The notes: generated from the sequence alone by a model not told the origin. 64,000 nt of DNA from an uncultured Alphaproteobacteria bacterium (GCA_902588745.1 CACIQI010000007.1:1-64000); one strand, 5' to 3'. Shown: positions 1,703 through 18,216, counted from the first letter of the stretch. Numbers and translations: made by a program.

Positions 1703-2614
1703 ATGAAATTTGATTTTTTATCAGAGAGTGATCAGGCTTATTTTATACATAAAGCCTCAACCTTAGTTGAAGCTCTTCCATACATTCGAGAACATAGTGG
1801 TGATACCATTGTAATAAAATACGGTGGACATGCAATGGGAGATAAAAAACTGTCTGAGAGTTTTTCAAGAGATATTGGATTATTAAAAGAAGTAGGTGTG
1901 TCACCAATTATTATTCATGGTGGAGGACCTCAAATTGGCGAGAGACTTAAATCAAAAAATATATCAACACAATTTGTTGAAGGATTACGAGTTACTGATA
2001 AAGAAACAATTAAGGTAGTTGAAGAAGTATTATCTAAGGATATCAATTCAGAAATTGTAGAATCTATAAGTGCCTCAGGAGGAAAAGCGATAGGAGTATC
2101 TGGTAATGATAACTTAGTCACTGCAACTAAATTGAACGTGGAAATTAAAAATAGTGATTCAAATATTGAAAAGATAATTGATATTGGTTTTGTTGGACAA
2201 CCAATAAAATTAAACAAAGATATGCTAACTAACATTATAAAAAATGGTCAAATACCAGTCATATCTCCTTTAGGTAAGGATGAAAATAATTTTACATATA
2301 ATATTAATGCTGACACTGTTGCGGGTTTTATAGCAGGTGAGTTACAGGCAAGTAAATTATTATTACTAACCGATGTACCTGGAATTTTAGACAAAGATGA
2401 AAAATTAATCTCATCAATAACTTTAGAAGAAGCTAAAAGTATTGCTAATAAAGAATATATTTCTGGAGGTATGAAGCCGAAAATTAATACATGTATTGAT
2501 GCAATGAAAAAAGGTGTTAAAAAATCTACTATTTTAGATGGAAGAATTCCTCATTCAGTAATATTAGAGTTATTCACTGAACATGGAATTGGTACACAAA
2601 TAACAAGTAATTAA
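1703..2614 (+). CDS. argB: Acetylglutamate kinase
   Basis: IVIKYGGHAMGD, PIIIHGGGPQIG, YNINADTVAGFIAGEL, SGGMKPKI motifs. Confidence 0.96.
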   Translation: MKFDFLSESDQAYFIHKASTLVEALPYIREHSGDTIVIKYGGHAMGDKKLSESFSRDIGLLKEVGVSPIIIHGGGPQIGERLKSKNISTQFVEGLRVTDKETIKVVEEVLSKDINSEIVESISASGGKAIGVSGNDNLVTATKLNVEIKNSDSNIEKIIDIGFVGQPIKLNKDMLTNIIKNGQIPVISPLGKDENNFTYNINADTVAGFIAGELQASKLLLLTDVPGILDKDEKLISSITLEEAKSIANKEYISGGMKPKINTCIDAMKKGVKKSTILDGRIPHSVILELFTEHGIGTQITSN

Positions 2615-3289
2615 ATGAGCTTTAAAGATAACATCAATACCTGGATATTTGATCTAGACAACACACTTTACTCTGCTGACAGTGGAATTTTTCAGCAAGT
2701 ACATAAGTTAATGGGTGAATTTGTAGCTAAAAATTTAAATATGGAATTAGCTGAAGCAAAAAAACTACAAGCAAAATATTACAAGCAACATGGCACAACT
2801 CTAAGAGGTATGATGGATAACCATGGCGTAGATCCTGATTATTTTTTAGAAGAAGTTCATAAGTTAGATTACTCAATTGTTGATCCAAATCAAAATCTTA
2901 ATGATGAATTATATAAACTTGAGGGAAGAAAAATTATTTATACAAATGCAAATAAGCAACATGTCTTAGATGTATTAGAAAAAATAAATCTAACAAATTT
3001 TTTTGATGAAATATATGATATTAAAATGGCTGATTATATTCCTAAGCCAGAAATTTCTCCCTATGAAAAAATTATCGACTTATTTAATATAGAACCAAAT
3101 AAATCAGCAATGTTTGATGATATCGCAAAAAATTTAGTTCCAGCAAAAAAAGTTGGTTTTACACCTGTCTGGGTTGATGCTGGTTATGAGAATTTTTCCG
3201 ATGATATTGAAGCATCTAAAGAATATTTAGATTTTCAAACAAGAGATTTGAGTTTATTTTTAAAAGATGTAAATGAGGGTAAAATATGA
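2615..3289 (+). CDS. HAD-superfamily pyrimidine 5'-nucleotidase-like hydrolase
   Basis: [47 protein letters not shown]; start directly abuts the argB stop. Confidence 0.88.
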
Positions 3290-4110
3290 GTGATCTCGAA
3301 AAAATTATAAATGATGCCTTTGAGGATAGAGATAATATTAATGTCAATACTACAGGTGATATTAGAAATGCAGTAGATGAAACTTTAAACAAACTTGATA
3401 GTGGAAGCTTAAGGGTTTGTGAAAAAATTAATAATGAATGGCAAGTTAATCAATGGATTAAAAAGGCAATTCTTTTAAGTTTCAGATTAAATGATAATGA
3501 AATTATTAAAGCATCGCATGCCACTTGGTTTGACAAAGTAGAAAGTAAAACTGCAAATTGGACTAAAGATGATCATCTGAAAGCAGGATTTCGATATGTA
3601 CCAGACGCTGTTGTAAGAAAATCTGCATTTATTGCTAAAGGTGTTGTTTTAATGCCCTCCTTTGTAAATCTTGGTGCATATGTTGATGAAGGAACAATGA
3701 TTGATACTTGGGCAACAGTTGGCTCATGTGCACAAATAGGTAAAAACTGTCATATTTCTGGAGGCGCTGGTATTGGCGGTGTACTTGAACCTCTTCAAGC
3801 AAATCCTGTGATTATTGAAGACAATTGTTTTATTGGAGCAAGAAGTGAAGTGGCTGAAGGTGTTATTATTGGTGAAGGTGCGGTTTTATCAATGGGTGTA
3901 TTTATTGGAGCATCTACAAAAATAGTTGATCGATCAACTGGAGAAATTCATATGGGAAAAGTTCCAGCGTATTCAGTTGTGGTACCAGGTGCGTTACCAG
4001 GAAAAAAAGAGGGGGATATTAATCCTTCTTTATACTGTGCTGTTATTGTTAAAAGAGTTGATGAAAAAACTAGAAGCAAAACATCAATCAATGATCTTTT
4101 AAGAGATTAA
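3286..4110 (+). CDS. dapD: 2,3,4,5-tetrahydropyridine-2,6-dicarboxylate N-succinyltransferase
   Basis: Left-handed beta-helix hexapeptides, [40 protein letters not shown]. Confidence 0.97.
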
Positions 4111-5288
4111 TGTCAGAAATTAATTTTGATCCAGTTACTCTTACACAATCCTTAGTTGAATGCGCAAGTGTAACTCCAAAAGATGAGGGTGCTTTAACAG
4201 TCGTTGCAAATCATCTAAATGCTATAGGATGTGAATGTCATCCATTAACTTTCTCTGGAAACAATTCTTATGAAGTAAATAATTTATTTGCAACAGTAGG
4301 AAATGAAGGAAAACATTTTGCTTATGCTGGTCATACAGATGTAGTTCCTGTAGGTAATGAAAGTTCATGGAAATACCCTCCTTTTTCTGCACAAATAGAT
4401 GGAGGCAAACTTTATGGAAGAGGTAGCGAAGATATGAAAAGCAGTGTTGCTTGTTTCATCAGTGCCACTAAAAGATTTGTAGAAAAATATAAAAATTTTC
4501 CAGGAAAGATTTCCTTTATTATTACAGGTGATGAAGAAAGAGATTCTGTAAATGGCACACCAAGAATTCTAGAATGGGCAAGTAAACAAAATTATAAATT
4601 TGATCATTGCCTTGTTGGTGAACCAACTTCTAAAAATGAGGTCGGCGATAAAGTTAAAATTGGAAGAAGAGGATCAGTTAGTTTCTTTTTTCAGGTAAAA
4701 GGTATTCAAGGACATACGGCGAATTCTCATTTAGCTGAAAATTCTTCACATCACTTAGTGAATTTATTAAATAGTATATTAGAAGAGCCGCTAGATGAAG
4801 GTAATAAAAATTTTTTACCAACATCAGTTCAAATTGCTACTATTGATATTGGCAATCCTGTTCAAAACGTAATTCCAGAATTAGCTAAAGCAACAGTTAA
4901 TATTAGATTTAATGATATGCACTCATCAGACTCACTTATTAAATGGATTGATAATAAAATAGAAAAGATTTTCTCTAAACTGGAAAACGCTAGTTGCACT
5001 TATACATATGATGCAACAGCTGAGTCATTTTTGAATAAAGCGGGTGATTTATATAATATTATTTCAAAATCAATTTCTGATGTTACAGGCAGAAATAGCC
5101 CGCCTGAACAAGCAACCGATGGTGGTACTTCTGATGCAAGATATATAAAGAACTATTGTGAAGTAGTAGAGCTAGGTCTAAGAAATCAAACTCTTCATAA
5201 AGTAGATGAATTTGTTTTTGTTGAAGATATTATTAAACTAGAAAGTATTTATTTTAGAATTTTAGAAAATTATTTTGATGTCAATTAA
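4110..5288 (+). CDS. dapE: Succinyl-diaminopimelate desuccinylase
   Basis: M20 peptidase: YAGHTDVVPVG, GRGSEDMKSSVACF, TGDEERDS, GGTSDARYI; next to dapD. Confidence 0.96.
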   Translation: MSEINFDPVTLTQSLVECASVTPKDEGALTVVANHLNAIGCECHPLTFSGNNSYEVNNLFATVGNEGKHFAYAGHTDVVPVGNESSWKYPPFSAQIDGGKLYGRGSEDMKSSVACFISATKRFVEKYKNFPGKISFIITGDEERDSVNGTPRILEWASKQNYKFDHCLVGEPTSKNEVGDKVKIGRRGSVSFFFQVKGIQGHTANSHLAENSSHHLVNLLNSILEEPLDEGNKNFLPTSVQIATIDIGNPVQNVIPELAKATVNIRFNDMHSSDSLIKWIDNKIEKIFSKLENASCTYTYDATAESFLNKAGDLYNIISKSISDVTGRNSPPEQATDGGTSDARYIKNYCEVVELGLRNQTLHKVDEFVFVEDIIKLESIYFRILENYFDVN

Positions 5289-6217
5289 TATCCATTAGAT
5301 GGATTAACATCTGATTTTACGTTTTTATTTTTCCTTAGTTTTTTATATTTGGAGTGCATGTATTTAACAGAAGGCTCTATCGCGGTTACACCTGCTACAT
5401 GTGGTGTAATTGTTACATTTGGTAATTTCCAAAATTGACTACTTGATTTTAAAGGTTCATTTTTAAAGACATCCAAATAAGCATAAAAATTTTTGTTTTT
5501 CTTTAAATGATTTAAAAGGTCATTCTCTTGAATTACATTACCTCTACCTATATTTATTAAGCAAGAATTTTTTTTCATATTCTTTAAAAACTTTTTATCT
5601 ATTATATTATTCGTTTGAGGTGTTGATGGTAAAATAGACACAATAACATCAGAGCTTTTAATAAAACTTATAATATTTTTACCGGTATATATTTTTATGT
5701 TTTTTACTTTTTTTTGATTTTTTTTATACGCTATAACATTATAATTTAATTTATTTAGTAATCTTGCAATATGATTACCAAGAAAGCCTAGACCTAAAAT
5801 ACCTACTGTTAAATTTTTATTATCAATTGGTGTCCTTTCTCCAGACCAGTAATGTTTACTTTGAGAATTTTGAAAAATTTTAAAATTTAATTGATAATTT
5901 AGTATTTGAGCTAGAGAATAATTAGCTATTCTCTCACCCATTTCCTCATCTTTTATTCTGATTATAGGAATTTTCTTATTATAATTCTTTAGTTTTAAAA
6001 TATGATCTACACCAGCACCCATAGAAAAAATAACTTTAAGATTTTTTAGTCTTGAAAGAATATCATCTGGCAGATTCCAAATTATAGCACAGTTTACATC
6101 ATTAAATTTTTTATAATCTTTTATAGAAATTATTTTTTCTTTTTTAAAATATTTTTTTATTGTTTTTTTCCAAACATCTATTTTATCAAATGTTGTATTA
6201 TGAAATAATATTGTCAT
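5285..6217 (-). CDS. D-2-hydroxyacid dehydrogenase, glyoxylate/hydroxypyruvate reductase A-like
   Basis: VGILGLGFLGNHIARLLNKLNYNV Rossmann motif, LINIGRGNVIQENDLL, LDVFKNEPLKSSSQFWKLPNVTITPHVAG. Confidence 0.88.
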   Translation of the reverse strand: MTILFHNTTFDKIDVWKKTIKKYFKKEKIISIKDYKKFNDVNCAIIWNLPDDILSRLKNLKVIFSMGAGVDHILKLKNYNKKIPIIRIKDEEMGERIANYSLAQILNYQLNFKIFQNSQSKHYWSGERTPIDNKNLTVGILGLGFLGNHIARLLNKLNYNVIAYKKNQKKVKNIKIYTGKNIISFIKSSDVIVSILPSTPQTNNIIDKKFLKNMKKNSCLINIGRGNVIQENDLLNHLKKNKNFYAYLDVFKNEPLKSSSQFWKLPNVTITPHVAGVTAIEPSVKYMHSKYKKLRKNKNVKSDVNPSNGY

Positions 6218-7317
6218 TGAATTTCTTTAATTAAATCATTGTATTTTTTGATTTGAATATCCCAGTTAAGTTCATTTTCTGCTCTAATTTTAGCATTTTG
6301 ACCAAGTTTTAATCTGTTTTCTTTATTATCTATTAAGCTTTTTATTGCTTCATCTAATTCATCAATATCTTTTATTATTAAGCCTGTTTTATTGTGTATT
6401 ACTGCTTCAGGAGTACCACCTATATTAGATGCTATTGATGGTATTTTGAAATTTGCTGCCTCTATGTAGGCTATACCAAATCCTTCAATTGATTTCGCTG
6501 AACTCTCATCTAGAGTTGGCATTATCATTAAATCAGTATTAGAGAATATATAATTTTTTTGGTTTTCATTTACTGTACCAACTAAATTTACATGATCTTG
6601 AAGATTGTATTCTTTAATTTTATTTTTAATACTATCTAGCTCGTCACCTTCACCAGCAATTATGTATTGAATATCAGGAAAATATTTTTTTAAGTTCATT
6701 ATAGATTTTAAGATTAAAGCATGACCTTTTCTCTTTTCAAGTCTTGCAAGAGTAAGTAATGTTGGTGAGCCTTGATTTAAATTTATATTTTCTTCAATAT
6801 AATTTTTTTTAATATTTATACCTGGGTATATTATTTTAACATTTTTAAAATTATTACTTAATTTATTTAGTAAATTTTTCGTGTAGCTTGAATTTACTAC
6901 TATTGCATTTACTTGTTCTAATATTTTTTTTACACGTTTATGATGTTTATCGTTTTTAATTATTATTTCATTACCATGAGCTAAACTGATAACTGGTATT
7001 TTATTTTTCTTAAGAAAATCTATTGCTACTTCAAGGCTTTTCCAACTATCACTAATTACTGCATCAATTTTTGATGAAACATGTATTTTTTTAAGTTCAT
7101 TAAATTTTTTTCTATTTCTTAAAAACTTTATACCTCGAAATCTTTTTGTAGAAAAATTTATTTCATTTTGATCAAAAATATTATCTTCTTTAAAATTTTG
7201 TTGATCTGCTAATACAATTACATCTTTGAAACGACTTAGATGCAATGCTAAATTGTACATTAGGGTTTCTATCCCTCCAACTCTTGATGGAAAACATTGT
7301 GTTAATATAATTATCAT
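6214..7317 (-). CDS. Glycosyltransferase family 4 protein
   Basis: N-terminal GGIETLMYNLALHL, LTLARLEKRKGHALILKS, YIAGEGDELDSIK, EGFGIAYIEAANFKIPSIASNIGGTPEAV. Confidence 0.9.
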   Translation of the reverse strand: MIIILTQCFPSRVGGIETLMYNLALHLSRFKDVIVLADQQNFKEDNIFDQNEINFSTKRFRGIKFLRNRKKFNELKKIHVSSKIDAVISDSWKSLEVAIDFLKKNKIPVISLAHGNEIIIKNDKHHKRVKKILEQVNAIVVNSSYTKNLLNKLSNNFKNVKIIYPGINIKKNYIEENINLNQGSPTLLTLARLEKRKGHALILKSIMNLKKYFPDIQYIIAGEGDELDSIKNKIKEYNLQDHVNLVGTVNENQKNYIFSNTDLMIMPTLDESSAKSIEGFGIAYIEAANFKIPSIASNIGGTPEAVIHNKTGLIIKDIDELDEAIKSLIDNKENRLKLGQNAKIRAENELNWDIQIKKYNDLIKEIQ

Positions 7318-7338
7318 TAAAATTTAAAGAATTTAAAA

Positions 7339-8346
7339 TTACGATATATTAATATCGATTGGAGTACCTTTAGCAATTGATTCCTTCATCGCAAATACGA
7401 CTCTTTCTGCTTCTAAAGCAGCCTGTAAATTTACTGCTGGTTTTTGATCAAAAACGCAATCCTCAATAAATTTATCTAAGCCTCTCTTTAAGCACCCATC
7501 AACTTTTGAATCTATAGTTGGCCAATTAGCAATATCTGGCTTCATATAATTTGTTTCTGTTTGCATCTGCAAACCCATTGATGATCCTTCTATAATAATT
7601 GATCCTTTATCACCTATAACATGAAGTGCTGGGTCTAGTGGTTCAGGTTGATTTTTAGGCAAAACCCAAGATGTTTCAAAGGATGCTAAACTTCCATCAT
7701 CAAATTTCATGATTGCCATTACAGCATCATGCGAGTCATATTCCTTACATTCTCTAATAACTGCCTCTGCAAAAACTCTTACTGGCTTTGATTTATTAAT
7801 GGACATAGTCATTTGAATATCATGAATCAAAGTTGAGGATAAAAGGTCAGTCCATGGAGCATAAATTTCAATTCCAAACCTGTTACCCCTTCTTCGTGCA
7901 AAACAAGATACGATATTGCCAATTTCATCATTTTTAACTTTTTCTTTCATTAATTTATATCGCGGATCTTCATGAAGAATAAAATTTACAGAAATAATTT
8001 TTTTATGATCTTTTATTTTATCAACTAACTCATGTATTTTTTCCAAATTTCTACCGAGAGGTTTTTCTAGTAAAATTTTTAAACCTCTTTTTACTGACAT
8101 AACAGCAGGCTCTATTCTGATTTGTTCAGGTGTAGCAATACTAATAGCATCTAATGTCTCAGTGTTTATTAATTTTGTAAAATCTTCATAAGCTTTACAA
8201 TTAAATGATTGTGCAACAGAATTAACCTTTTCTTTATCAACATCACAAACAGCTACAAGCTCAGAATTAGGATTTCTAAAAAAAGCTTCTGCATGAAATG
8301 TACCAACTAGACCAGTTCCAATAACTGCAATTTTTAATTTACTCAT
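7339..8346 (-). CDS. Gfo/Idh/MocA family NAD(P)-dependent oxidoreductase
   Basis: IAVIGTGLVGTFHAEAFFRNPNSELVAVCD, ISIATPEQ, LLEKPLGRNL, TLIHDIQMTM. Confidence 0.92.
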   Translation of the reverse strand: MSKLKIAVIGTGLVGTFHAEAFFRNPNSELVAVCDVDKEKVNSVAQSFNCKAYEDFTKLINTETLDAISIATPEQIRIEPAVMSVKRGLKILLEKPLGRNLEKIHELVDKIKDHKKIISVNFILHEDPRYKLMKEKVKNDEIGNIVSCFARRRGNRFGIEIYAPWTDLLSSTLIHDIQMTMSINKSKPVRVFAEAVIRECKEYDSHDAVMAIMKFDDGSLASFETSWVLPKNQPEPLDPALHVIGDKGSIIIEGSSMGLQMQTETNYMKPDIANWPTIDSKVDGCLKRGLDKFIEDCVFDQKPAVNLQAALEAERVVFAMKESIAKGTPIDINIS

Positions 8347-9179
8347 TATTTATCACTTCCCGATAATACTACTTTTGTAATATATTGTTGGAAAAAAATC
8401 ATTAGTATTGTGACTGGAATTAAAGTAATTATTGCTGCTGCAGCTTGTTGACCAATTTTAATGTCTATAGTGCTCCTAAACAATCCAAGAGCTACTGTAG
8501 AAATTTTCAAATTATTAGTAAATATTAAAGGTGTTAAAAATTCAACCCAAGATAAAATAAATGCAAATATGAAGGCTGCTATTAAACCAGGTCTCAATAA
8601 AGGGAAAATGATGTGAATTAAAAGTTGTAGAGTAGAACAACCATCAATTTTTGCAGCCTCCTCCACCTCAACAGGTAGTTTATCAATAAATGATTTTAAA
8701 ATCCAAATAACAAAAGGTAATGTAAAGGCAGTATACGGAACAACTAGACTTAAAATAGTGTCATCTAGTTGATATGAAACTAATATAACAAATAAGGGAA
8801 TTACAAAAAGTATTGTTGGAAGAAAATAAATAGAAATTAAAGTTCCAAGAATAATATTTTTAGCTGGTAAATTTAATCTTGCAAGTGAGTATGATGCCGG
8901 AAAAGCTAAAATTATGCATAAAAAAGACGTGAGGAATGAAACAATAAGACTATTTTTAATACCCTCATAAATATTAGATATATGATTAGGTTTCAAAACC
9001 TCAGCAAAATGAGTAAATATAATTTCTGTTGGAAAAAAAGACAAATTTCTAGATCTAATTATATTTTCAGGTTGTATGCTTGTTAATATTAAACCGTATA
9101 GTGGAAAAAACATTATCAAAAATACTATGAGAGCAGAAAAATAAATAAAAAAATTTTTTAGAATCAAATTTTTTTTCAT
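8346..9179 (-). CDS. Carbohydrate ABC transporter permease (MalG-like)
   Basis: Six hydrophobic segments and EAA motif EEAAKIDGCSTLQLLIHIIFPLLRPGL. Confidence 0.93.
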   Translation of the reverse strand: MKKNLILKNFFIYFSALIVFLIMFFPLYGLILTSIQPENIIRSRNLSFFPTEIIFTHFAEVLKPNHISNIYEGIKNSLIVSFLTSFLCIILAFPASYSLARLNLPAKNIILGTLISIYFLPTILFVIPLFVILVSYQLDDTILSLVVPYTAFTLPFVIWILKSFIDKLPVEVEEAAKIDGCSTLQLLIHIIFPLLRPGLIAAFIFAFILSWVEFLTPLIFTNNLKISTVALGLFRSTIDIKIGQQAAAAIITLIPVTILMIFFQQYITKVVLSGSDK

Positions 9180-10105
9180 TTATTACCCCAAAAAAATTTT
9201 ATTAAAAATCTTGAAATAGTTGGAATTAATACAACAGCTAAAGTAATTATTAGCAAAACATAGGCTGCTGCTGAAGCTCGGCCTAGATTAAAAGTTTCAA
9301 ATGCTTCTTGATAAATAAAATAATTTAATGTTGTTGTTCCACCCCCTGGCCCCCCTCTTGTAAGAACAAAAATTGTATCAAATGATTTCATTGCTAAAAC
9401 AAATTGTATCAAGAAAAGTGGTATCGCAATTGGTAACATTAAAGGAAATAAAATGTTAGAGAACCTTTGAAATACATTTGCTCCATCAACAGCAGCAGCC
9501 TCAAAAACTTCCGAGGGTAAACTTTGAAGTCCTGATAAAAAAAATAATGTCATGAAAGGAATTGCTTTCCAGATTTCAGCAATAGCTATTACATGAAGGG
9601 CTACTAATGGATCTGCTAACCAAATTTTGTAACCTGATATGACCCCTAATTGATATAATAAAGCATTTAAAAACCCAGTATCAGCATGAAACATTTGTCC
9701 CCACAGTACACCAGAAACAACAGATGGCACTGCCCACGGTAATACAATCATGACTCTTAAAAATGCTTTTCCAATAAATTTTTCATTTAAAAGAAGTGCG
9801 ATCAAGAAAGAAAGTATTGTTGTACACACGCAGATCAAAAACCCGAAGTAAATAGTTCTTAAGACAGAACTTGTAAAAAAATAATTACTTATTAAAAATT
9901 CAAAGTTTTTAAATTGAATAAATTTTTTTATTTTTAAGCGAATTATATCATATTCGGCAAAACTTATTACAAAAGTAAATATAGCTGGATATAAATAAGT
10001 TATAAAAACTAGAATTAAAGAAGGAAGTATTAGTGTGAAAGCAAGAATTTTTTCTCTTGAAAATTTGAATTGAGAATTACTTGGTTGATTTAAAAGATCT
10101 GTCAT
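9176..10105 (-). CDS. Carbohydrate ABC transporter permease (MalF-like)
   Basis: EAA motif FEAAAVDGANVFQRFSNILFPLMLP; TRGGPGGGTTTLNYFIYQEAF. Confidence 0.93.
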   Translation of the reverse strand: MTDLLNQPSNSQFKFSREKILAFTLILPSLILVFITYLYPAIFTFVISFAEYDIIRLKIKKFIQFKNFEFLISNYFFTSSVLRTIYFGFLICVCTTILSFLIALLLNEKFIGKAFLRVMIVLPWAVPSVVSGVLWGQMFHADTGFLNALLYQLGVISGYKIWLADPLVALHVIAIAEIWKAIPFMTLFFLSGLQSLPSEVFEAAAVDGANVFQRFSNILFPLMLPIAIPLFLIQFVLAMKSFDTIFVLTRGGPGGGTTTLNYFIYQEAFETFNLGRASAAAYVLLIITLAVVLIPTISRFLIKFFWGNK

Positions 10106-10838
10106 GTCCTGGAATTACAAGATCTGGTTTATAGCTTTGTGCTTTATCTAGTGATTCGTTTAATTGTTTTAAATTTGCTTCTGGATACCATCTAGAAAAT
10201 TTTCTTTCACAATACTCTTCCTTTGTCATAGTTTGATCACCAGCAATTAAAATAGTTTCATCATTACTTTTAACTATAAAAGATATATGGCCATTTGTAT
10301 GTCCCGGAGTGGTTATTGCATAGACATTTTCCATAATTTTTGTCTCATTATCATCTGAGATTTCAATGATTTCTCCCATCATTGATTTTTTAGCATCTAC
10401 AATTTCTTTCCCCTCAATAGCAACCATATCATCAAATTCTTTGCTTCCAATAATCCAAGGTTTATTTCTAAAATGAACAATAGAAGCTGCATGATCAGAA
10501 TGTGTATGAGTAGTAGCTACTATATCGATATCTTCATATGTTAAATTTTTTGAAGCCAGTGCTCTCTTTAATATAGAATAAAAACCGATATGATAATTAC
10601 CAGGATCAACTAAAATATTTTTCTCACCTCTAATTAGTGTAGTTGAGGCTACTGGTAAAAAACCAACATTTGTATCAAAAATTGGTCCATCATCAGTAGT
10701 TACACCCATAAGCTTTTCCATCTCATCAAGTTGTTGTTCTGGATGTGAAGCAAACATATAAATTAATTCGCTATTGTGATAACTAAATCTTAAAGTTACG
10801 GGATTTATTAAAATATCAACAGTAGTATTCATTCTCAA
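10077..10838 (-). CDS. MBL-fold metallo-hydrolase (lactonase/MBLAC1-like)
   Basis: TTHTHSDHAAS (HxHxDH), TPGHTNGHISF, IAGDQTMT, VIPGHDRSF. Confidence 0.88.
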   Translation of the reverse strand: MRMNTTVDILINPVTLRFSYHNSELIYMFASHPEQQLDEMEKLMGVTTDDGPIFDTNVGFLPVASTTLIRGEKNILVDPGNYHIGFYSILKRALASKNLTYEDIDIVATTHTHSDHAASIVHFRNKPWIIGSKEFDDMVAIEGKEIVDAKKSMMGEIIEISDDNETKIMENVYAITTPGHTNGHISFIVKSNDETILIAGDQTMTKEEYCERKFSRWYPEANLKQLNESLDKAQSYKPDLVIPGHDRSFKSTK

Positions 10839-12055
10839 ATATCTCCATTTTCAGACAGACTTTGATTAATCCAGTCTAAGTTTTCATAATTCATAAATGA
10901 GTAGTTATAGAAGCTAAATCCTGATGCATCTTTATTAAATACTTGAAGTTGGTTTTTAAGATCTAATTGATTAGAAACTTGTGGGAGGATTGTTCTCATT
11001 GCAGGTATCATTTCAACTTTGTTATTTAATACTTTTTTATAAACATCATATTTTTCTTTTATAAGATCTAAATCTGCAAAATAAAAAGTTGGATGAATTT
11101 CATCAATCAAGGGCAATAGAGAATTTAAATTTACACCATTTTGCCATCTCTGATTATTAGGACCAAGTGGATATAATGGACCAAAGTCAACTAAACCAAT
11201 TTTTAAATTTTTATCTTTTCGTAATTCATTGACTACCAAAGTATTGATGTTTGTGATACTTTCTTCTCTTGCCAAATAGTAATTCCAAAACTCACCATCA
11301 AGAATACTTTGAAAATCAGACCAATTCATAACTTCTTTATTTGTTTTTTGATTAAAATAATCATCTGTAGTTTTTTTAACCCAGTTTCTAATCATTTCAC
11401 CATCAATATTTTTTTGCTTCAAAGTCTCTAAACATTTATTACTAAAGTTAAGTGACATAATAAAATCGATATCAGCTGAAAAATCTACTCCAATTACTTC
11501 ATGGTGATGTCCGTGTCTTAATGGAAGATATTCAAGAGATTCAATTAGAATTTTATCAAATACACCTAGATTTACTACATCTCTTGATAAATTTACAAAA
11601 TGATCAACTACATCCGAATTAAAGGGACATAGAGAGTGTGTGATCGGATCACCCCAAGCATTATATACAGATGTATTGGGATAATTATTTCCAATTCCAG
11701 AATTATGAGTACCAAGCATCCATGCGCATAATTTGATATTATTTTTTTTACATTGATTTGATAATTCTTCCCAAAACTGACTCCAATTCTCAGTAAGATT
11801 ACTTATAGGGGATTGAAAACTATGATTATTATGCCAACTACTTGGATTGAAGTATAAAGCCCCAGGTTCAGGAAAATATATTTTTCTTTTTTTACTATGA
11901 GGTAAAAAAAACATTCCTGAGTGATAATTTACAGTAATATAAATTGCATTAAGTCCACTTCTCTTTACTGCATCAATAATTGCATCATAACCTTCATCAA
12001 TTACGTCCCAGGGATAACAAAATAAGGCTAAATCTTTTTTATTCATTTTTACCAT
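10835..12055 (-). CDS. Uncharacterised 406-aa protein, possibly a TIM-barrel glycosidase-like fold
   Basis: Long ORF with ATGA-type overlaps to neighbours. Contains KLCAWMLGTHNSGIG, DKILIESLEYLPLRHGHHHE, IGLVDFGPLYPLGPNNQRWQ. Coding is convincing; the fold is a guess from alternating beta/alpha texture. Confidence 0.7.
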   Translation of the reverse strand: MVKMNKKDLALFCYPWDVIDEGYDAIIDAVKRSGLNAIYITVNYHSGMFFLPHSKKRKIYFPEPGALYFNPSSWHNNHSFQSPISNLTENWSQFWEELSNQCKKNNIKLCAWMLGTHNSGIGNNYPNTSVYNAWGDPITHSLCPFNSDVVDHFVNLSRDVVNLGVFDKILIESLEYLPLRHGHHHEVIGVDFSADIDFIMSLNFSNKCLETLKQKNIDGEMIRNWVKKTTDDYFNQKTNKEVMNWSDFQSILDGEFWNYYLAREESITNINTLVVNELRKDKNLKIGLVDFGPLYPLGPNNQRWQNGVNLNSLLPLIDEIHPTFYFADLDLIKEKYDVYKKVLNNKVEMIPAMRTILPQVSNQLDLKNQLQVFNKDASGFSFYNYSFMNYENLDWINQSLSENGDI

Positions 12056-12833
12056 TTAAAGGTTTTTTCCATTTTGAAAAATCTTCAATAAAGTCTGAAA
12101 CTTTATCTGTTATTATCTCATAAAGTTCAGTGCCTTTCTTTTTGGAAGCAAGACTTGGTGAGCCAATAACTCCATGATCTGAAAGCTCTTTAAAGCTTGC
12201 ACTTACTCCAACTGAACCGCCTGATAAAAGGTCAACTCCTGTATATGAAGATCTTTTTAATGGGTTGTCGACAATTTTATCTTTTTTAACTATCTCCTCT
12301 TGCATATGTAACATAAGTGCTGTTTCCATTTCACATGCATGATTTATTCCACCAAGATCAGAATCTCTCCACTCATTAATTTCTTTCATGGCAAAATCCC
12401 AATATGATGCTGTAGCTATATAAATATTTTTATCGTATTTTAACTTTTGTCCAACATTTTTAAGAATAGCAATATTGCCTCCATGCCCATTCAAAATAAG
12501 TATTCTCTCTAATTTATTTTTTACCAAACTCTCAACTATATCCAATATAACGTTTGTTAATGTTTCATCCTTAATAGAAATTGTACCAGGAAAATCCATA
12601 TGATGTGGTGAATAACCTGACCAAATAACTGGTGCCACAACTGCATAAATATTCTTTTGGTGAGATTTTTTTACAGACTCATTGGCAATATTATTAACCA
12701 TAAATTCATCTACTTTGAGCGGTAAATGTTTTCCATGCTGCTCGAATGCACCAAGAGGAAGAAGAACTACCGGATCTTTATCTGATAAGTCCTTAACTTC
12801 CTCCCATGTATAATTACCCAAATTAACTTTCAT
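12039..12833 (-). CDS. Creatininase family protein (creatinine amidohydrolase-like)
   Basis: VVLLPLGAFEQHGKHLPLKVDE, APVIWSGYSPHHMDFPGTISI, ILNGHGGN, GGINHACEMETALML. Confidence 0.93.
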   Translation of the reverse strand: MKVNLGNYTWEEVKDLSDKDPVVLLPLGAFEQHGKHLPLKVDEFMVNNIANESVKKSHQKNIYAVVAPVIWSGYSPHHMDFPGTISIKDETLTNVILDIVESLVKNKLERILILNGHGGNIAILKNVGQKLKYDKNIYIATASYWDFAMKEINEWRDSDLGGINHACEMETALMLHMQEEIVKKDKIVDNPLKRSSYTGVDLLSGGSVGVSASFKELSDHGVIGSPSLASKKKGTELYEIITDKVSDFIEDFSKWKKPLNGKNE

Positions 12834-12852
12834 AATTTGTGTATTTTATTAT

Positions 12853-14175
12853 TTATGATCTGCTCGCATTAATTTGCTTAACAGCATCATTTAAAGCATC
12901 TTTAGCACTTTTCTTTTGAGTCAATGCTAATGAAACTTCATTTGATAATAATTCAACCCATTGATTTCTATCTGCAGAAAAACCTGCGTCTACAGGATAT
13001 AGATATGAGTCTTTAATAACACCTGCCATTGATATATTTTTCAGAACATCTGGATGATCTAGAGCAGGTTCTAAAGATGGTGCCCAAGGCGACGTTGAAC
13101 CTTGCAATATCTGATTGTCAGGACTTAAAGCCATTTCAATAAATTGCATTCCTGCCTCAGGATTATCTGAATATTTAGGTATTGCTAAAAATTCTGATCC
13201 ATCCACAGATGCAGAAGTTTCTAATGCAGGAAGTGGTGCTATACCACTCATCCCTTGCACTGCAGAATCTTCTGTGAAATTTGCAATTCCACTAATAAAT
13301 GGCCATGTTAAGAAAAATCCTCTTTTCCCTGCCATATAGCTTGGAGATGCATCAAATACCCAAGTGTAAGTAGGCGTAGCTGGGTCAATGATTTTATCTT
13401 TATGTAAAAGATCAACCATCATATTTAAAGCTTCAACACCCGCATCACTATTCATGATCGGATCTAGATTTTCATCTAAGAAACTTCCTCCATTCGCTTG
13501 AAGTAAAGCTCCAAAAGTCCAAAAACTATGAGTACCTGCCCAAGCATCAACAATACCATATATATCATTATCAGGATCGTTAATTTCTTTAGCAAAACGA
13601 ATAAGTTCGTTCCAAGAATTTTTTGTACGATGCCAATTATTAGGCGCTTCTGTATCCAATCCTGCATTTTTAAGTAAATTTTTATTCCAGTGCAGTACTG
13701 GGCAACCAATCGTAATTGGGGCAGCATAGACTTTGCCTTTGTAAGTTGCGGCAGTTAGACTGTTTTCCATAACGCCATTTGGTTTTAATGTATCATTTAC
13801 AAAATCACTCATATCCATCAACCAACCCTTATCAGCTAAACCAGCAATTTCTGAAGCAGTCACAAATATTGCATCACCTACACTTTTTCGTGCAATATAC
13901 GCTGAATTTAATTTAACAGATAGATCTGGTGTTGTTACTGTTTCTATACTTGGTGTAACACCATATTTTTCTGCATAAGCAGGAGCTAAAGCTTGCAAAT
14001 AATCCATATGTGAACCAAGCAAAAGACTAACTGGTTTAGTGTTAGCAGCAAATGCATACTTCATACCAACTTGCGATAATAGAGTACCTGCAAGAGCAGC
14101 AGAACCTGTATGGTTAATAAACTTTCTCCTAGAGATCTTTTTTTTCATTTTACCCTCCATTAAAATGATTATCAA
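12853..14175 (-). CDS. ABC transporter family-1 extracellular solute-binding protein with Tat-type signal
   Basis: MKKKISRRKFINHTGSAALAGTLLSQVGMKYAFA leader (start likely at an internal Met); SBP body with YKGKVYAAPITIG, GKRGFFLTWPFISG. Confidence 0.9.
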   Translation of the reverse strand: MIIILMEGKMKKKISRRKFINHTGSAALAGTLLSQVGMKYAFAANTKPVSLLLGSHMDYLQALAPAYAEKYGVTPSIETVTTPDLSVKLNSAYIARKSVGDAIFVTASEIAGLADKGWLMDMSDFVNDTLKPNGVMENSLTAATYKGKVYAAPITIGCPVLHWNKNLLKNAGLDTEAPNNWHRTKNSWNELIRFAKEINDPDNDIYGIVDAWAGTHSFWTFGALLQANGGSFLDENLDPIMNSDAGVEALNMMVDLLHKDKIIDPATPTYTWVFDASPSYMAGKRGFFLTWPFISGIANFTEDSAVQGMSGIAPLPALETSASVDGSEFLAIPKYSDNPEAGMQFIEMALSPDNQILQGSTSPWAPSLEPALDHPDVLKNISMAGVIKDSYLYPVDAGFSADRNQWVELLSNEVSLALTQKKSAKDALNDAVKQINASRS

Positions 14176-14403
14176 AAGATTGAACCGTATTTAAAATATA
14201 AAGTCAATAATGAACGAATTTAATTTCTCTAATTTATTTAAACTTAAACTTTAATAGTAAAAATTAATTAAAAATCTGTATTTTTGATATTCTATAAAAT
14301 TATATATATATTTCTTATATGCATTTTATGCATATCAAAATTCAGAAATTTATACTGTTATTGCATATAAAAGTTATTATATAAAACATGAAAGGAATTT
14401 TAT

Positions 14404-14580
14404 ATGATTAATGTTTTTAATTTTTTTAACAAAGTATATGAAGATTTAAGTGAGAAAAACTACAATAGTGATCAGGATTTAATAAAATATTTTAAATCTG
14501 AATATGGAAAGGAATGGAAAATAGAATTAGATAAACATCTTTTAAAAACTGAATTTGATATAAATAAGAAAGCCGCATAA
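14404..14580 (+). CDS. Small ORF, 58 aa, unknown function
   Basis: MINVFNFFNKVYEDLSEKNYNSDQDLIKYFKSEYGKEWKIELDKHLLKTEFDINKKAA; AAAGGAA Shine-Dalgarno-like motif just upstream of the ATG; not in the supplied track. Confidence 0.45.
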   Translation: MINVFNFFNKVYEDLSEKNYNSDQDLIKYFKSEYGKEWKIELDKHLLKTEFDINKKAA

Positions 14581-14590
14581 TCGGCGGCTT
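14570..14590 (-). terminator. Rho-independent terminator-like hairpin downstream of the minus-strand peptidase gene
   Basis: Perfect 7-bp arms AAGCCGC/GCGGCTT with a 7-nt loop. On the minus strand it is followed by TTTCTTATTT and lies just after the stop at 14594. Confidence 0.7.
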
Positions 14591-14593
14591 AAC

Positions 14594-16360
14594 TTAAATT
14601 TTCACAGTTACTCTCTTAAGCCAATTTCTCTCTTCTTCTTCAAGGAAAGACTCTAATTTTTCATACACCTGTGAGTGATATTTATTTAGCCACTCCTTCT
14701 CAATTTCATTTAATAGAGTGCTATCAATAAGATCTGAATCAATTGGACACCAAGAAATGGTTTCAAAGTATAATTTTTTATTAGCATTTTCATTAATAAC
14801 AACTAAGTTTTCAGTTCTTATCCCATATTCATTTTCTTTATAATATCCAGGTTCATTGGATAAAATCATTCCTGGAAGTAACTCAACGTTATCAAACATT
14901 GATTTTTTTGCAATACGTTGTGGGGCTTCATGAACACTTAAAAAACTTCCAATACCGTGACCAGTCCCATGATCATAATCTAAATTAATTTCTTGCAAGC
15001 TTTTTCTTGCCAGATAATCAATATCAGTGCCTTTTGTTCCTTTGTCAAAAACATGATTTGATAGAGCAATATGACCTTTAAGAACTCTCGTAAATCTATC
15101 TTTTTGTTCTGTTGTTGCTTGTCCTAAAATTATAGTTCTAGTTATATCTGTTGTTCCATCTAAATATTGCCCTCCTGAGTCAACAAGATAAATATTATTA
15201 TCTGAGAAAGATGACTTTCCTTCTTCAGTAACACGGTAATGGGGAAGGGCTGCATTTTTATCAATTGCTGATATTGTATCAAAAGATAGAGAATGAAATA
15301 ATTCATTTTTTTTTCGAAGATTTTCTAAATGATGTGCAACACTTATTTCATCATTTGATTTAGGATCCATTATATTTTTTAACCAATAAATATATTTAGT
15401 TATACTAACACCATCTCTTATATTTGCTTTTTTAGCTCCTTCTAGTTCAATTTCATTTTTTATAGCTTTTAACAAAATACATGGATTTTCTAAATTTTTA
15501 GTTTTTATTTTTTGTTTTTTTAGAAGATCCAAAAAATAATATGTTGTTGAATTAAAATCTAAACCAATTGATTCAGATGCATTAATGTTATTGAAAATTG
15601 ATCCTATGTTTTCAATATTATTAATATTTATTAGTGTTTGGATTTCCTTTTTTAGTATTTCTGGCATTGCAGACTTTTTAATATAGAAAGAATGTTTATT
15701 ATTTTTTGAAATTAGAAGATAGGAATAAAGCAGCGGTGTATATTTAATATCATCTGCTCTCAAATTTAATACCCAAGCAATATTATCAAGCCCAGAAATA
15801 AAATAATGATCAATTTCATTTTTATCTAAAAATTTTTTTAAAATGTCTAATTTTTCACGTCTTCCCTGACCAGCAAAACTTGTTGAGTGGTCGAATATAT
15901 CTGTATACTGAGTTTTTGGTTGATTTTCCCATATTAAATCAACAAAATTTTTATCTATTAATTGAAGTTTAGATTTTGAATTCTCTAACATTTTCTCCAC
16001 TTTTTCAATTTCTACAATTGAATGAAGAGTTGGATCTAATGCAATTTTATGTTCTTCTTCTAATAAAATTTTTTCTAAATCTGTCCAAAAGCTTTTTAAA
16101 TGTTTTGCTTGAATTTGTTTGGCATTAATTTGAGTGTTTGCTTGAAATGTATATCGTCCATCAACATACAAGAAGGCATCTGTTGGCGTTATAATTGCTC
16201 TTCCTGCAGAACCAGAAAAGTTTGTTATAAAATTTAATCTTTCTGCATTTGGAGAAATATATTCATTTAAATATTCATCACTTCTATTAATGACAAATAT
16301 ATCGATATCTTTTTCTTTTAATAGTTTTTGTAATTTTTCTAAATTTGATTGATTGATCAT
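14594..16360 (-). CDS. Aminopeptidase P family (M24) Xaa-Pro aminopeptidase
   Basis: LVDSGGQYLDGTTDITRTI, GTGHGIGSFLSVHEAPQRI, MILSNEPGYYKENEYGIRTENLVV. Confidence 0.94.
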   Translation of the reverse strand: MINQSNLEKLQKLLKEKDIDIFVINRSDEYLNEYISPNAERLNFITNFSGSAGRAIITPTDAFLYVDGRYTFQANTQINAKQIQAKHLKSFWTDLEKILLEEEHKIALDPTLHSIVEIEKVEKMLENSKSKLQLIDKNFVDLIWENQPKTQYTDIFDHSTSFAGQGRREKLDILKKFLDKNEIDHYFISGLDNIAWVLNLRADDIKYTPLLYSYLLISKNNKHSFYIKKSAMPEILKKEIQTLININNIENIGSIFNNINASESIGLDFNSTTYYFLDLLKKQKIKTKNLENPCILLKAIKNEIELEGAKKANIRDGVSITKYIYWLKNIMDPKSNDEISVAHHLENLRKKNELFHSLSFDTISAIDKNAALPHYRVTEEGKSSFSDNNIYLVDSGGQYLDGTTDITRTIILGQATTEQKDRFTRVLKGHIALSNHVFDKGTKGTDIDYLARKSLQEINLDYDHGTGHGIGSFLSVHEAPQRIAKKSMFDNVELLPGMILSNEPGYYKENEYGIRTENLVVINENANKKLYFETISWCPIDSDLIDSTLLNEIEKEWLNKYHSQVYEKLESFLEEEERNWLKRVTVKI

Positions 16361-17322
16361 AATTTATTAAATAAATTTAAATCAATATTACCACCAGAAA
16401 TCATAACGATAATCTTTTTATTTTTCACATCAATTTTATTGTTTAGTACTGCAGCTGCAGCAACAGCTCCTCCTGGTTCGACTACTATTTTAAGTTGTTC
16501 AGCTAGTAAAATTATGGTCTCTGTTACTTCTTTATCAGATACACTTAATCCTCCTTCAAGATTATTTGAATTAATTTGAAAGGTTATATTTCCAGGTTGT
16601 GGTGCTAATAGTGCATCACAAAATGATTTAGCATTTTTTTTATTTTCAATAAGTTTACCAGCTTCTAAAGATCTTTTAGTATCATCAAATTCGTCAGGCT
16701 CTACAGAATATGATTTTATATTTGGGTAGATATGTTTTAAGTATGTTGATGTTCCTGCAATAAGCCCTCCACCTCCACAACAACATAAATAAAAATCAGG
16801 TTCAATTGATTGCTCTTTCAAATCATTTACAATTTCTATAGCTGCAGTTCCCTGACCAGCAATTACATCTTCATCATCATAAGGTTTAATTAGAGCTCTA
16901 TTATCCTTCTTTTGAATTTCATTTCCTATCTGTTCTCTGCTTTGAAAATAAGTGTCATATAATATCACCTCTGCTCCATATTTTTTTGTATTTTCAATTT
17001 TTATTTTAGGTGCAGTTTTAGGCATTATTATTTTTGCACTAATGTTATTAATCATAGATGCATAAGCAACAGCTTGTGCATGATTACCTGATGAATATGC
17101 CACTACACCTGAGTCTTTTACATTTTCTATTAATTTTGTAATTTTATGTGTAGCTCCACGTAGTTTAAATGATCCAGTATTTTGTAAATTTTCAAGTTTA
17201 AAATAAATTTCTGCTTCTAAAAGATTATTTATATAATCATTAGTTACCAAAGGAGTTTTTGTTACCTTTTGATTGATTAATTTATAAGCATTATCAACAT
17301 TTAAATAGCTAAAATCAGTCAT
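16357..17322 (-). CDS. Threonine/serine dehydratase (PLP-dependent, fold type II)
   Basis: FKLENLQNTGSFKLRGATHKI (PLP-lysine), YSSGNHAQAVAYAS, CCCGGGGLIAG. Confidence 0.92.
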   Translation of the reverse strand: MTDFSYLNVDNAYKLINQKVTKTPLVTNDYINNLLEAEIYFKLENLQNTGSFKLRGATHKITKLIENVKDSGVVAYSSGNHAQAVAYASMINNISAKIIMPKTAPKIKIENTKKYGAEVILYDTYFQSREQIGNEIQKKDNRALIKPYDDEDVIAGQGTAAIEIVNDLKEQSIEPDFYLCCCGGGGLIAGTSTYLKHIYPNIKSYSVEPDEFDDTKRSLEAGKLIENKKNAKSFCDALLAPQPGNITFQINSNNLEGGLSVSDKEVTETIILLAEQLKIVVEPGGAVAAAAVLNNKIDVKNKKIIVMISGGNIDLNLFNKL

Positions 17323-17371
17323 AATTTTAAAGTTTTACATCGTTTTAATGGAATAAACTAAAAAAAAATAT

Positions 17372-17656
17372 ATGTATATTATCATGGAACAGAACAAAGT
17401 AACTTCGCCTTGCATTAGCGTATGTAAAACTGACCCAATCTCGGGGTATTGCTATGGCTGTGGAAGAACTAATGAAGAGAAAGCTATTTGGAAAGATGAA
17501 AATACTTCAAATGAATGGAAACAAAATAATTTATCTGAACTAAAATCTAGATTATCAGATTGGCAGTTAGAGGCATTTGAAGAATCTTATAAATCTAAGG
17601 TTGAAACAGGTTTATCTCTTATTAAGAAAAAATTAGCAGAAAATCGTAAAAATTGA
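17372..17656 (+). CDS. DUF1289 domain protein (Cys-rich, possible Fe-S)
   Basis: SPCISVCKTDPISGYCYGCGRTNEEKAIW. Confidence 0.88.
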   Translation: MYIIMEQNKVTSPCISVCKTDPISGYCYGCGRTNEEKAIWKDENTSNEWKQNNLSELKSRLSDWQLEAFEESYKSKVETGLSLIKKKLAENRKN

Positions 17657-18216
17657 AAAGTTTAATAATTTTTATTTTTATTTTATTTTTTTCATTCAAT
17701 CTTCAATCTCAAAATAAAATGATACTTGATAACTTAGAAACACCTGGAATTTCTTCTCAAGGTCAAAATTGGGCTTTTTTTACTGACGGAGTAATGGGTG
17801 GATTATCCCAAGGTAAAGCGATCATCTCAAAAGTTAATGATGTTAATTGTTATCATATGACAGGAGATGTCACGACTGAAAATAACGGTGGCTTTATACA
17901 AATAAGAAATCAATTAAAACCTTCAATATCAACAGAAGAGTTTGAGGGTATTTATTTTAAAGTGTTTGGTAATAATGAAGAGTATTCAATTCATGTAAGA
18001 ACCGCTCTAACGATGGCTCCATGGCAATATTATAAATATAGTTTTAAAACTAATTCTGAGTGGAAAGTAATAAAAGCACCCTTTAGTGAATTTAAAAAAT
18101 CAAATGCATATCAACCTAAAAAATTAGTTGGTCAGAATATCAAGACATTAGGTCTGGTTGCTGGATTTAAAGATTTTCAAGCAGATATTTGTTTATCAGA
18201 GATTGGCTTTTATTAA
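17653..18216 (+). CDS. CIA30 family protein (complex I intermediate-associated 30-like), TTG start
   Basis: WAFFTDGVMGGLSQGKA, GFIQIRNQL, signal-like N-terminus; overlaps the DUF1289 stop. Confidence 0.8.
   Translation: MKSLIIFIFILFFSFNLQSQNKMILDNLETPGISSQGQNWAFFTDGVMGGLSQGKAIISKVNDVNCYHMTGDVTTENNGGFIQIRNQLKPSISTEEFEGIYFKVFGNNEEYSIHVRTALTMAPWQYYKYSFKTNSEWKVIKAPFSEFKKSNAYQPKKLVGQNIKTLGLVAGFKDFQADICLSEIGFY

Follow-up and report, generated by a model that had tools for sequence, protein, structure and literature searches.

CUT1 sugar importers of the MalEFGK type are described together with linked catabolic enzymes, and the Thermotoga-type inositol pathway pairs an oxidoreductase of the Gfo/Idh family (IolG) with a creatininase-family enzyme (IolN), the latter family also including creatininase itself, MftE and ArfB. 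AiiA-type N-acyl-homoserine lactonases represent the metallo-beta-lactamase (MBL) fold, while the glycoside hydrolase family 153 (GH153) domain of PgaB, acting on an amino-sugar polymer, adopts a (beta/alpha)8 barrel with an acidic residue at the strand-4 position. This proposed acid, D474, aligns with D183 of DspB (PMC5933820). Here we describe a seven-gene operon having likenesses to each of these systems and falling under the thresholds of their characterized members. It is located in a stretch of 64,000 nucleotides from an uncultured alphaproteobacterium (GCA_902588745.1, CACIQI010000007.1:1-64000; hereafter the window) and encodes a solute-binding protein (SBP), a creatininase-family hydrolase, a protein of 406 residues (U406), an MBL-fold hydrolase (MBL), two permeases (PermF and PermG) and a Gfo/Idh/MocA oxidoreductase (Gfo). 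We tentatively propose that it serves to take up a small N-acylated (amino-)sugar glycoside and to degrade it step by step (probability of about 0.42); gene content, conservation, fold and the limits of the island are shown by the data, and the substrate and the order of reactions are what we infer.

The earlier note on this DNA regarded nine tightly packed minus-strand genes at 5285-14175 as one undescribed uptake and catabolic cluster, adding a GT4 glycosyltransferase and a D-2-hydroxyacid dehydrogenase (HADH) to the seven. All nine open reading frames (ORFs) are indeed present in the window sequence, with adjacent ones overlapping by 1-29 bp or separated by a gap of ~20 bp at most, and Pfam supports the family named for every one of the eight ORFs that it matches, leaving the 406-residue protein as the exception. 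The membership of GT4 and HADH, by contrast, had to be given up. In eight loci of related genomes (L160-L167) this pair is flanked by the genes for the M24 peptidase and DapE, none of the core genes being present, and the window DNA at 14600-14297 matches (~83%) the resident intergenic DNA upstream of GT4 in these empty loci, while at the other flank the alignment picks up again at ~7353-7318, towards GT4. U406 was found in 7 of 101 close genomes, all seven belonging to the window's genus, and 21 or more genomes of the genus where no U406 was found carry an HADH of at least 85% identity; neither GT4 nor HADH adjoins the operon in L027-L030 and L032. Since the two genes are found without the other seven at the same site in eight related genomes, they are assigned to the resident backbone. 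Judged from these alignments, the cluster is SBP-creatininase-U406-MBL-PermF-PermG-Gfo, inserted as an island between the resident intergenic region and GT4, and the empty-site comparison rules out the nine-gene unit. That all nine genes nevertheless form one functional cluster, with HADH reducing for instance a hydroxypyruvate-like product, would agree with their shared strand and tight spacing; set against the occurrence of GT4 and HADH without the seven genes, and of the operon without GT4 and HADH, this is highly improbable. As a separate observation, the island-adjacent HADH of one relative (G049:C26:8054-8984) gives two separate matches and contains in-frame stops, which points either to decay of the resident gene or to a fault in the assembly.

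In six further alphaproteobacterial loci the seven genes likewise stand together in one operon, in the window's order in MarineAlpha5_Bin7 (L027) and in the order SBP-PermF-PermG-Gfo-creatininase-U406-MBL in Roseitalea (L028), a metagenome-assembled genome of Rhodobacterales (L029), Rubellimicrobium (L030), Pelagibacterium (L032) and alphaproteobacterium G781 (L092). Because the core proteins of the window retain 46-68% identity to those of the distant genera, chance ORFs are ruled out. The earlier note had named absence of co-occurrence in other genomes as the outcome that would speak against it, and the gene set does recur. A record from Trueperaceae (Deinococcota) contains the tail of a creatininase gene followed by U406 and MBL, the region upstream of this tail being a stretch of N; when the MBL protein was compared with the plasmid collection by tblastn, distant MBLs only were detected. 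Literature searches returned no description of the operon and nothing relevant on this combination of genes. Taken together, the sequence comparisons give good support to a catabolic operon that is real, conserved, apparently undescribed and carried as an accessory island. The island thereby provides a delimited group of genes that lends itself to testing, and Pelagibacterium montanilacus CCL18 is a carrier available in culture.

The importer genes at the window locus comprise the CUT1 set of a MalE-type SBP and two MalFG-type permeases. The closest solved chain to SBP is the trehalose/maltose-binding protein of Thermococcus (1eu8, E 1.4e-27), and its orthologues in L027-L030, L032 and L092 are 57-85% identical. 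Its most likely start codon is the ATG at 14148, which is preceded by GGAGG, and not the TTG at 14175; the N-terminal sequence KKKISRRKFI...AFAA can be read as a signal of the twin-arginine type. Unlike described CUT1 importers, the locus of HIMB59 type has no ATPase gene, and no characterized family is matched above its cut-off; in distant operons a MalK-type ATPase is encoded, directly after MBL in five loci (L028, L029, L030, L032 and L092). Elsewhere the window genome encodes five or more ATPases of MalK/UgpC type that share 41-51% identity with the operon versions.

U406 has no family match in Pfam or NCBIfam, and its function was approached via the fold. The AlphaFold2 model built from ten operon-type sequences (pLDDT, the predicted local distance difference test, 81.7; pTM, the predicted template modelling score, 0.85) retrieved with Foldseek the GH153 domain of PgaB as the best match (E 1.9e-12 to 1e-10), then GH35, GH14 and GH20. 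Against PgaB GH153 the TM score is ~0.6 at 12-13% identity. Comparison with a viral library gave barrels of hexosaminidase and GH5 type and one protein named after PgaB, and relatives of U406 show faint Pfam matches, below cut-off, to the putative glycosyl hydrolases GHL6, GHL10 and DUF4015. Among 25 diverse U406 rows, E172, located where core strand 4 ends, is the sole acid identical in all, accompanied by invariant H45, H117, H185, Y14, W16, Y44, W112, Y325 and Y383. U406 is alike PgaB in having the (beta/alpha)8 barrel and an acidic residue at the strand-4 position, but this residue is Glu instead of Asp and lacks the preceding His, I-E172-S standing where PgaB has H473-D474; in addition, U406 is a single-domain protein with no visible signal peptide. 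A phmmer search of U406 against the PDB did not find PgaB, and membership in GH153 is ruled out by the lack of a sequence-level match and of the His-Asp pair. The model nonetheless indicates that U406 is probably a glycoside-hydrolase-like enzyme with E172 as putative acid. Two considerations weigh against this assignment: the likeness to GH153 is at the superfamily level, and, as far as residue conservation goes, E172 could equally participate in a metal site together with H45, H117 and H185.

The family is widespread, being encountered in HIMB59-type bacteria, on Rhizobium plasmids, in haloarchaea and in Deinococcota, and carries no family name or assigned function. In its tree the operon-linked members constitute a clade with 100/100 support on a long stem, and distant relatives, mostly with 21-28% identity, reside on plasmids of Rhizobium, Aminobacter, Aureimonas and haloarchaea. 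A U406 relative adjoins a creatininase gene in eight haloarchaeal loci, several of them with a CUT1 importer, RidA and IclR. On the Haladaptatus plasmid (L037) the pair is found with NamZ, AnmK, a GH3 protein annotated nagZ and GH18, on the Halomontanus plasmid (L034) with two NamZ, while in Natrinema (L039) the relative occurs with GH20 and a PIG-L deacetylase, without creatininase. Clusters of Rhizobium type combine U406 with a CUT2-like importer, an alanine-racemase-like protein, RidA, an AstE-like protein and an amidohydrolase. These contexts have in common an importer and C-N chemistry, frequently together with enzymes of sugar metabolism, and on this rests the assumption of an amino-sugar or N-acyl-glycoside substrate. 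Of the amide- or lactam-containing, sugar-like compound suggested in the earlier note, the amide or N-acyl version remains plausible and is slightly strengthened by the neighbors found elsewhere, while for a lactam no support emerged.

The same neighborhoods allow two other substrates to be considered. The presence of NamZ, AnmK, GH3/NagZ and GH18 in the L037 and L034 haloarchaea suggests that these organisms may scavenge sugars of bacterial cell walls. That the operon itself acts on muropeptides or cell-wall sugars containing N-acetylmuramic acid (MurNAc) would agree with these surroundings, in which U406 and creatininase also have serine hydrolase genes near them; they are, however, confined to these two haloarchaeal loci, no such gene occurs in the alphaproteobacterial operons, and MurQ is not above cut-off in the window genome, which makes this substrate distinctly improbable. 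Alternatively, the compound might be a D-amino-acid or peptide-like N-acyl derivative, in which case creatininase, M81 (MlrC-like), RidA and class-III aminotransferase would be the main actors and the MalE-type importer would have drifted in specificity. M81, RidA and IclR do stand beside the distant operons, with the aminotransferase in most of them; D-serine-dehydratase/alanine-racemase-like proteins, D-aminoacylase and RidA recur in distant U406 clusters; and the Halobaculum plasmid (L170) encodes IclR-RidA-M81-aminotransferase-creatininase-ALDH (aldehyde dehydrogenase) with a dipeptide-type importer and without U406. Yet the island of HIMB59 type lacks M81, RidA and aminotransferase, as well as IclR, at its locus and keeps the importer, Gfo, U406 and MBL, the importer being of the sugar (CUT1) type, so that this version appears unlikely. 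Regardless of the substrate, L170 may be noted as an accessory module devoid of U406.

The creatininase-family protein exceeds the gathering cut-off of PF02633 by far (225.7 against 31.3 bits) and falls short of the curated models for creatininase EC 3.5.2.10 (TIGR04448, 121.6 bits, cut-off 235), MftE (TIGR03964, 134.7 bits, cut-off 172) and IolN (NF041098, 85.9 bits, cut-off 245), as do its orthologues; on these cut-offs an identity with any of the three is ruled out. With creatininase, MftE, IolN and ArfB it shares the PF02633 domain and the E-x-H, D and GH motifs in the region of the metal site, but it scores below all four NCBIfam cut-offs, and the Tyr-Glu following GH in creatininase is replaced by Gly-Gly. 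Its own SPHH motif, in the form GxSPHH, is present in all 16 U406-linked creatininases and in two further sampled haloarchaeal ones; no other sampled creatininase gave a hit in the motif search, several of these being fragments. The alphaproteobacterial U406-linked proteins compose a clade with 100/98 support. A single clade uniting bacterial and archaeal U406-linked creatininases is not supported: they fall into two well-supported separate clades, with four label changes, hence the creatininase-U406 link recurs and descent from one event is not demonstrable. U406, probably glycoside-hydrolase-like, is as central as the creatininase around which the earlier note built the cluster. A second, divergent creatininase-family gene without SPHH is encoded elsewhere in the window genome (L079, 7848-8615, on G000:C3).

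Gfo has as its best NCBIfam match the inositol 2-dehydrogenase IolG (TIGR04380), at 131.4 bits against a cut-off of 355, which rules out its assignment as IolG. In IolG-type enzymes the catalytic Asp presumably sits four residues before the active-site His; at this position Ser is found in eight of eight Gfo orthologues, the segment SSTLIHD being conserved in all. These data bear on the possibility of a cyclitol pathway similar to that of Thermotoga, where Gfo would produce a keto-inositol, an IolN-like creatininase would split the diketo ring at a C-C bond, and U406 with MBL would process derivatives or glycosides. The pairing of a Gfo/Idh protein with a creatininase-family enzyme, the top match of Gfo to IolG and the appearance of IolN among the creatininase matches are in line with it; nevertheless, both scores are far under the cut-offs (131 versus 355 and 86 versus 245 bits), the MftE and creatininase models outscore IolN, the expected catalytic Asp is replaced, no IolM-type dehydrogenase was recognized in the operons, and the glycoside-hydrolase-like and MBL enzymes are additions to the known pathway. 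Such a route is accordingly regarded as quite unlikely.

The MBL protein matches AiiA (PDB 2br6, E 2.8e-9) over residues 98-247 only. Like AiiA-type lactonases it has the HxHxDH dinuclear metal site, complete with invariant H111, H113, D115, H116, H180, D201 and H245, and the C-terminal GHD, but it scores far under the cut-off of the lactonase model (NF045699, 58.5 bits versus 375), and its structure model is poor (mean pLDDT 65.7). Creatininase, MBL and Gfo are all under the cut-offs of every characterized NCBIfam enzyme, which, along with conservation of the seven-gene set, bears out the view of an undescribed uptake and catabolic cluster.

If the substrate is an N-acylated (amino-)sugar glycoside as proposed, its degradation may be envisaged as follows. 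SBP and the permeases would import the compound, energized by a MalK-type ATPase encoded elsewhere in the genome; U406, using E172 as its acid, would cleave the glycosidic unit; Gfo would act on the ring of the sugar, oxidizing it to a keto-sugar or a lactone; MBL would open the lactone; and the creatininase-family enzyme would cleave an amide (or C-C) bond. RraA-like proteins accompany the operon in L025, L027 and L030, and contig C4 of the window genome encodes RraA, RidA and M81 which are 62%, 57% and 38% identical, respectively, to the operon versions of L025, so functions of these types may be supplied from there. Several points weigh against this interpretation. The amino-sugar context comes from relatives on haloarchaeal plasmids with only 21-27% identity, and the alphaproteobacterial operons carry no known amino-sugar enzyme. 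The creatininase family includes the C-C hydrolase IolN, hence amide cleavage is not certain. Neither NagB nor MurQ exceeds the cut-off in the window genome (~80% complete), which, the genome being incomplete, is no argument for or against an alternative oxidative route. A bolder version, in which U406 founds a new glycoside hydrolase family and acts with a creatininase-family amidase, Gfo and an MBL lactonase in an oxidative route that needs no phosphorylation and degrades glycosides of amino sugars, perhaps derived from cell walls, in open-ocean HIMB59-type bacteria and Rhodobacterales/Rhizobiales, with a variant in haloarchaea, seems rather unlikely at present.

Table 1. Positions of the genes and other elements at the locus, counted from the first letter of the window.
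Feature	Positions	Strand	Characteristics
HADH, D-2-hydroxyacid dehydrogenase (GhrA-like)	5285-6217	-	310 aa; PF02826 (2-Hacid_dh_C) 154.4 bits; resident, outside island
GT4 glycosyltransferase	6214-7317	-	367 aa; PF00534 (Glycos_transf_1) 131.5 bits; resident, outside island
Gfo/Idh/MocA NAD(P)-dependent oxidoreductase	7339-8346	-	335 aa; PF01408 (GFO_IDH_MocA) 89.3 bits
PermG, MalG/UgpE-type permease	8346-9179	-	277 aa; PF00528 (BPD_transp_1) 70.3 bits
PermF, MalF/UgpA-type permease	9176-10105	-	309 aa; PF00528 (BPD_transp_1) 62.2 bits
MBL-fold hydrolase, AiiA-lactonase-like	10077-10838	-	253 aa; PF00753 (Lactamase_B) 61.6 bits
U406, probable glycoside-hydrolase-like (beta/alpha)8-barrel protein	10835-12055	-	406 aa; no Pfam/NCBIfam family
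Creatininase-family metallohydrolase, G-x-SPHH subgroup	12039-12833	-	264 aa; PF02633 225.7 bits
SBP, CUT1 (MalE-type) solute-binding protein	12853-14175	-	440 aa; PF01547 (SBP_bac_1) 119.5 bits, PF13416 92.3 bits
Accessory island, approximate extent	7340-14297	.	empty-site DNA alignment
Terminator-like hairpin of upstream M24 gene	14590-14570	-	7-bp stem, T-rich tail

The terminator-like hairpin parts the operon from the upstream M24 peptidase gene and suggests that the operon is a transcription unit of its own. The Rfam search over 4000-17000 revealed no RNA element, and the promoter scan gave fewer sites than in shuffled sequence, so no promoter is claimed.

With 40 contigs totalling 1.5 Mb, a completeness of 80% and low GC, the window genome fits, by its size, its GC and the names of its relatives, a marine bacterium of HIMB59/AEGEAN-169 type, for which a GC content of 27.0-32.5% and genome sizes of 1.26-1.84 Mb are reported (PMC10308909). 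U406 is 97-100% identical in marine single-cell genomes (AG-), and 80-82% identical in one more genome of the AG- series as well as in a bin named MarineAlpha5. HIMB59/AEGEAN-169 bacteria, widespread surface-ocean heterotrophs, are known only in outline with regard to their broader sugar use; the same work lists their sugar transporters and mentions neither creatininase nor inositol nor amino sugar (PMC10308909). Two other islands are located on contig C4 of the genome. One of them (L077, G000:C4:10000-29500, at 8855-17696) is, like the seven-gene one, catabolic and encodes RraA, two Gfo, short-chain dehydrogenases/reductases, an HpcH aldolase, a D-serine-dehydratase-like protein, RidA and an amidohydrolase, its gene content resembling the Rhizobium U406 clusters. 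The other (L078, G000:C4:29400-48500, at 1704-18019) is of sialic-acid type, including a NanA-like dihydrodipicolinate synthase (DHDPS) homolog, NanE (249.8 bits), a ROK kinase, a dipeptide-type ATP-binding cassette (ABC) importer, a BNR sialidase-like protein, an M81 peptidase and a class-III aminotransferase.

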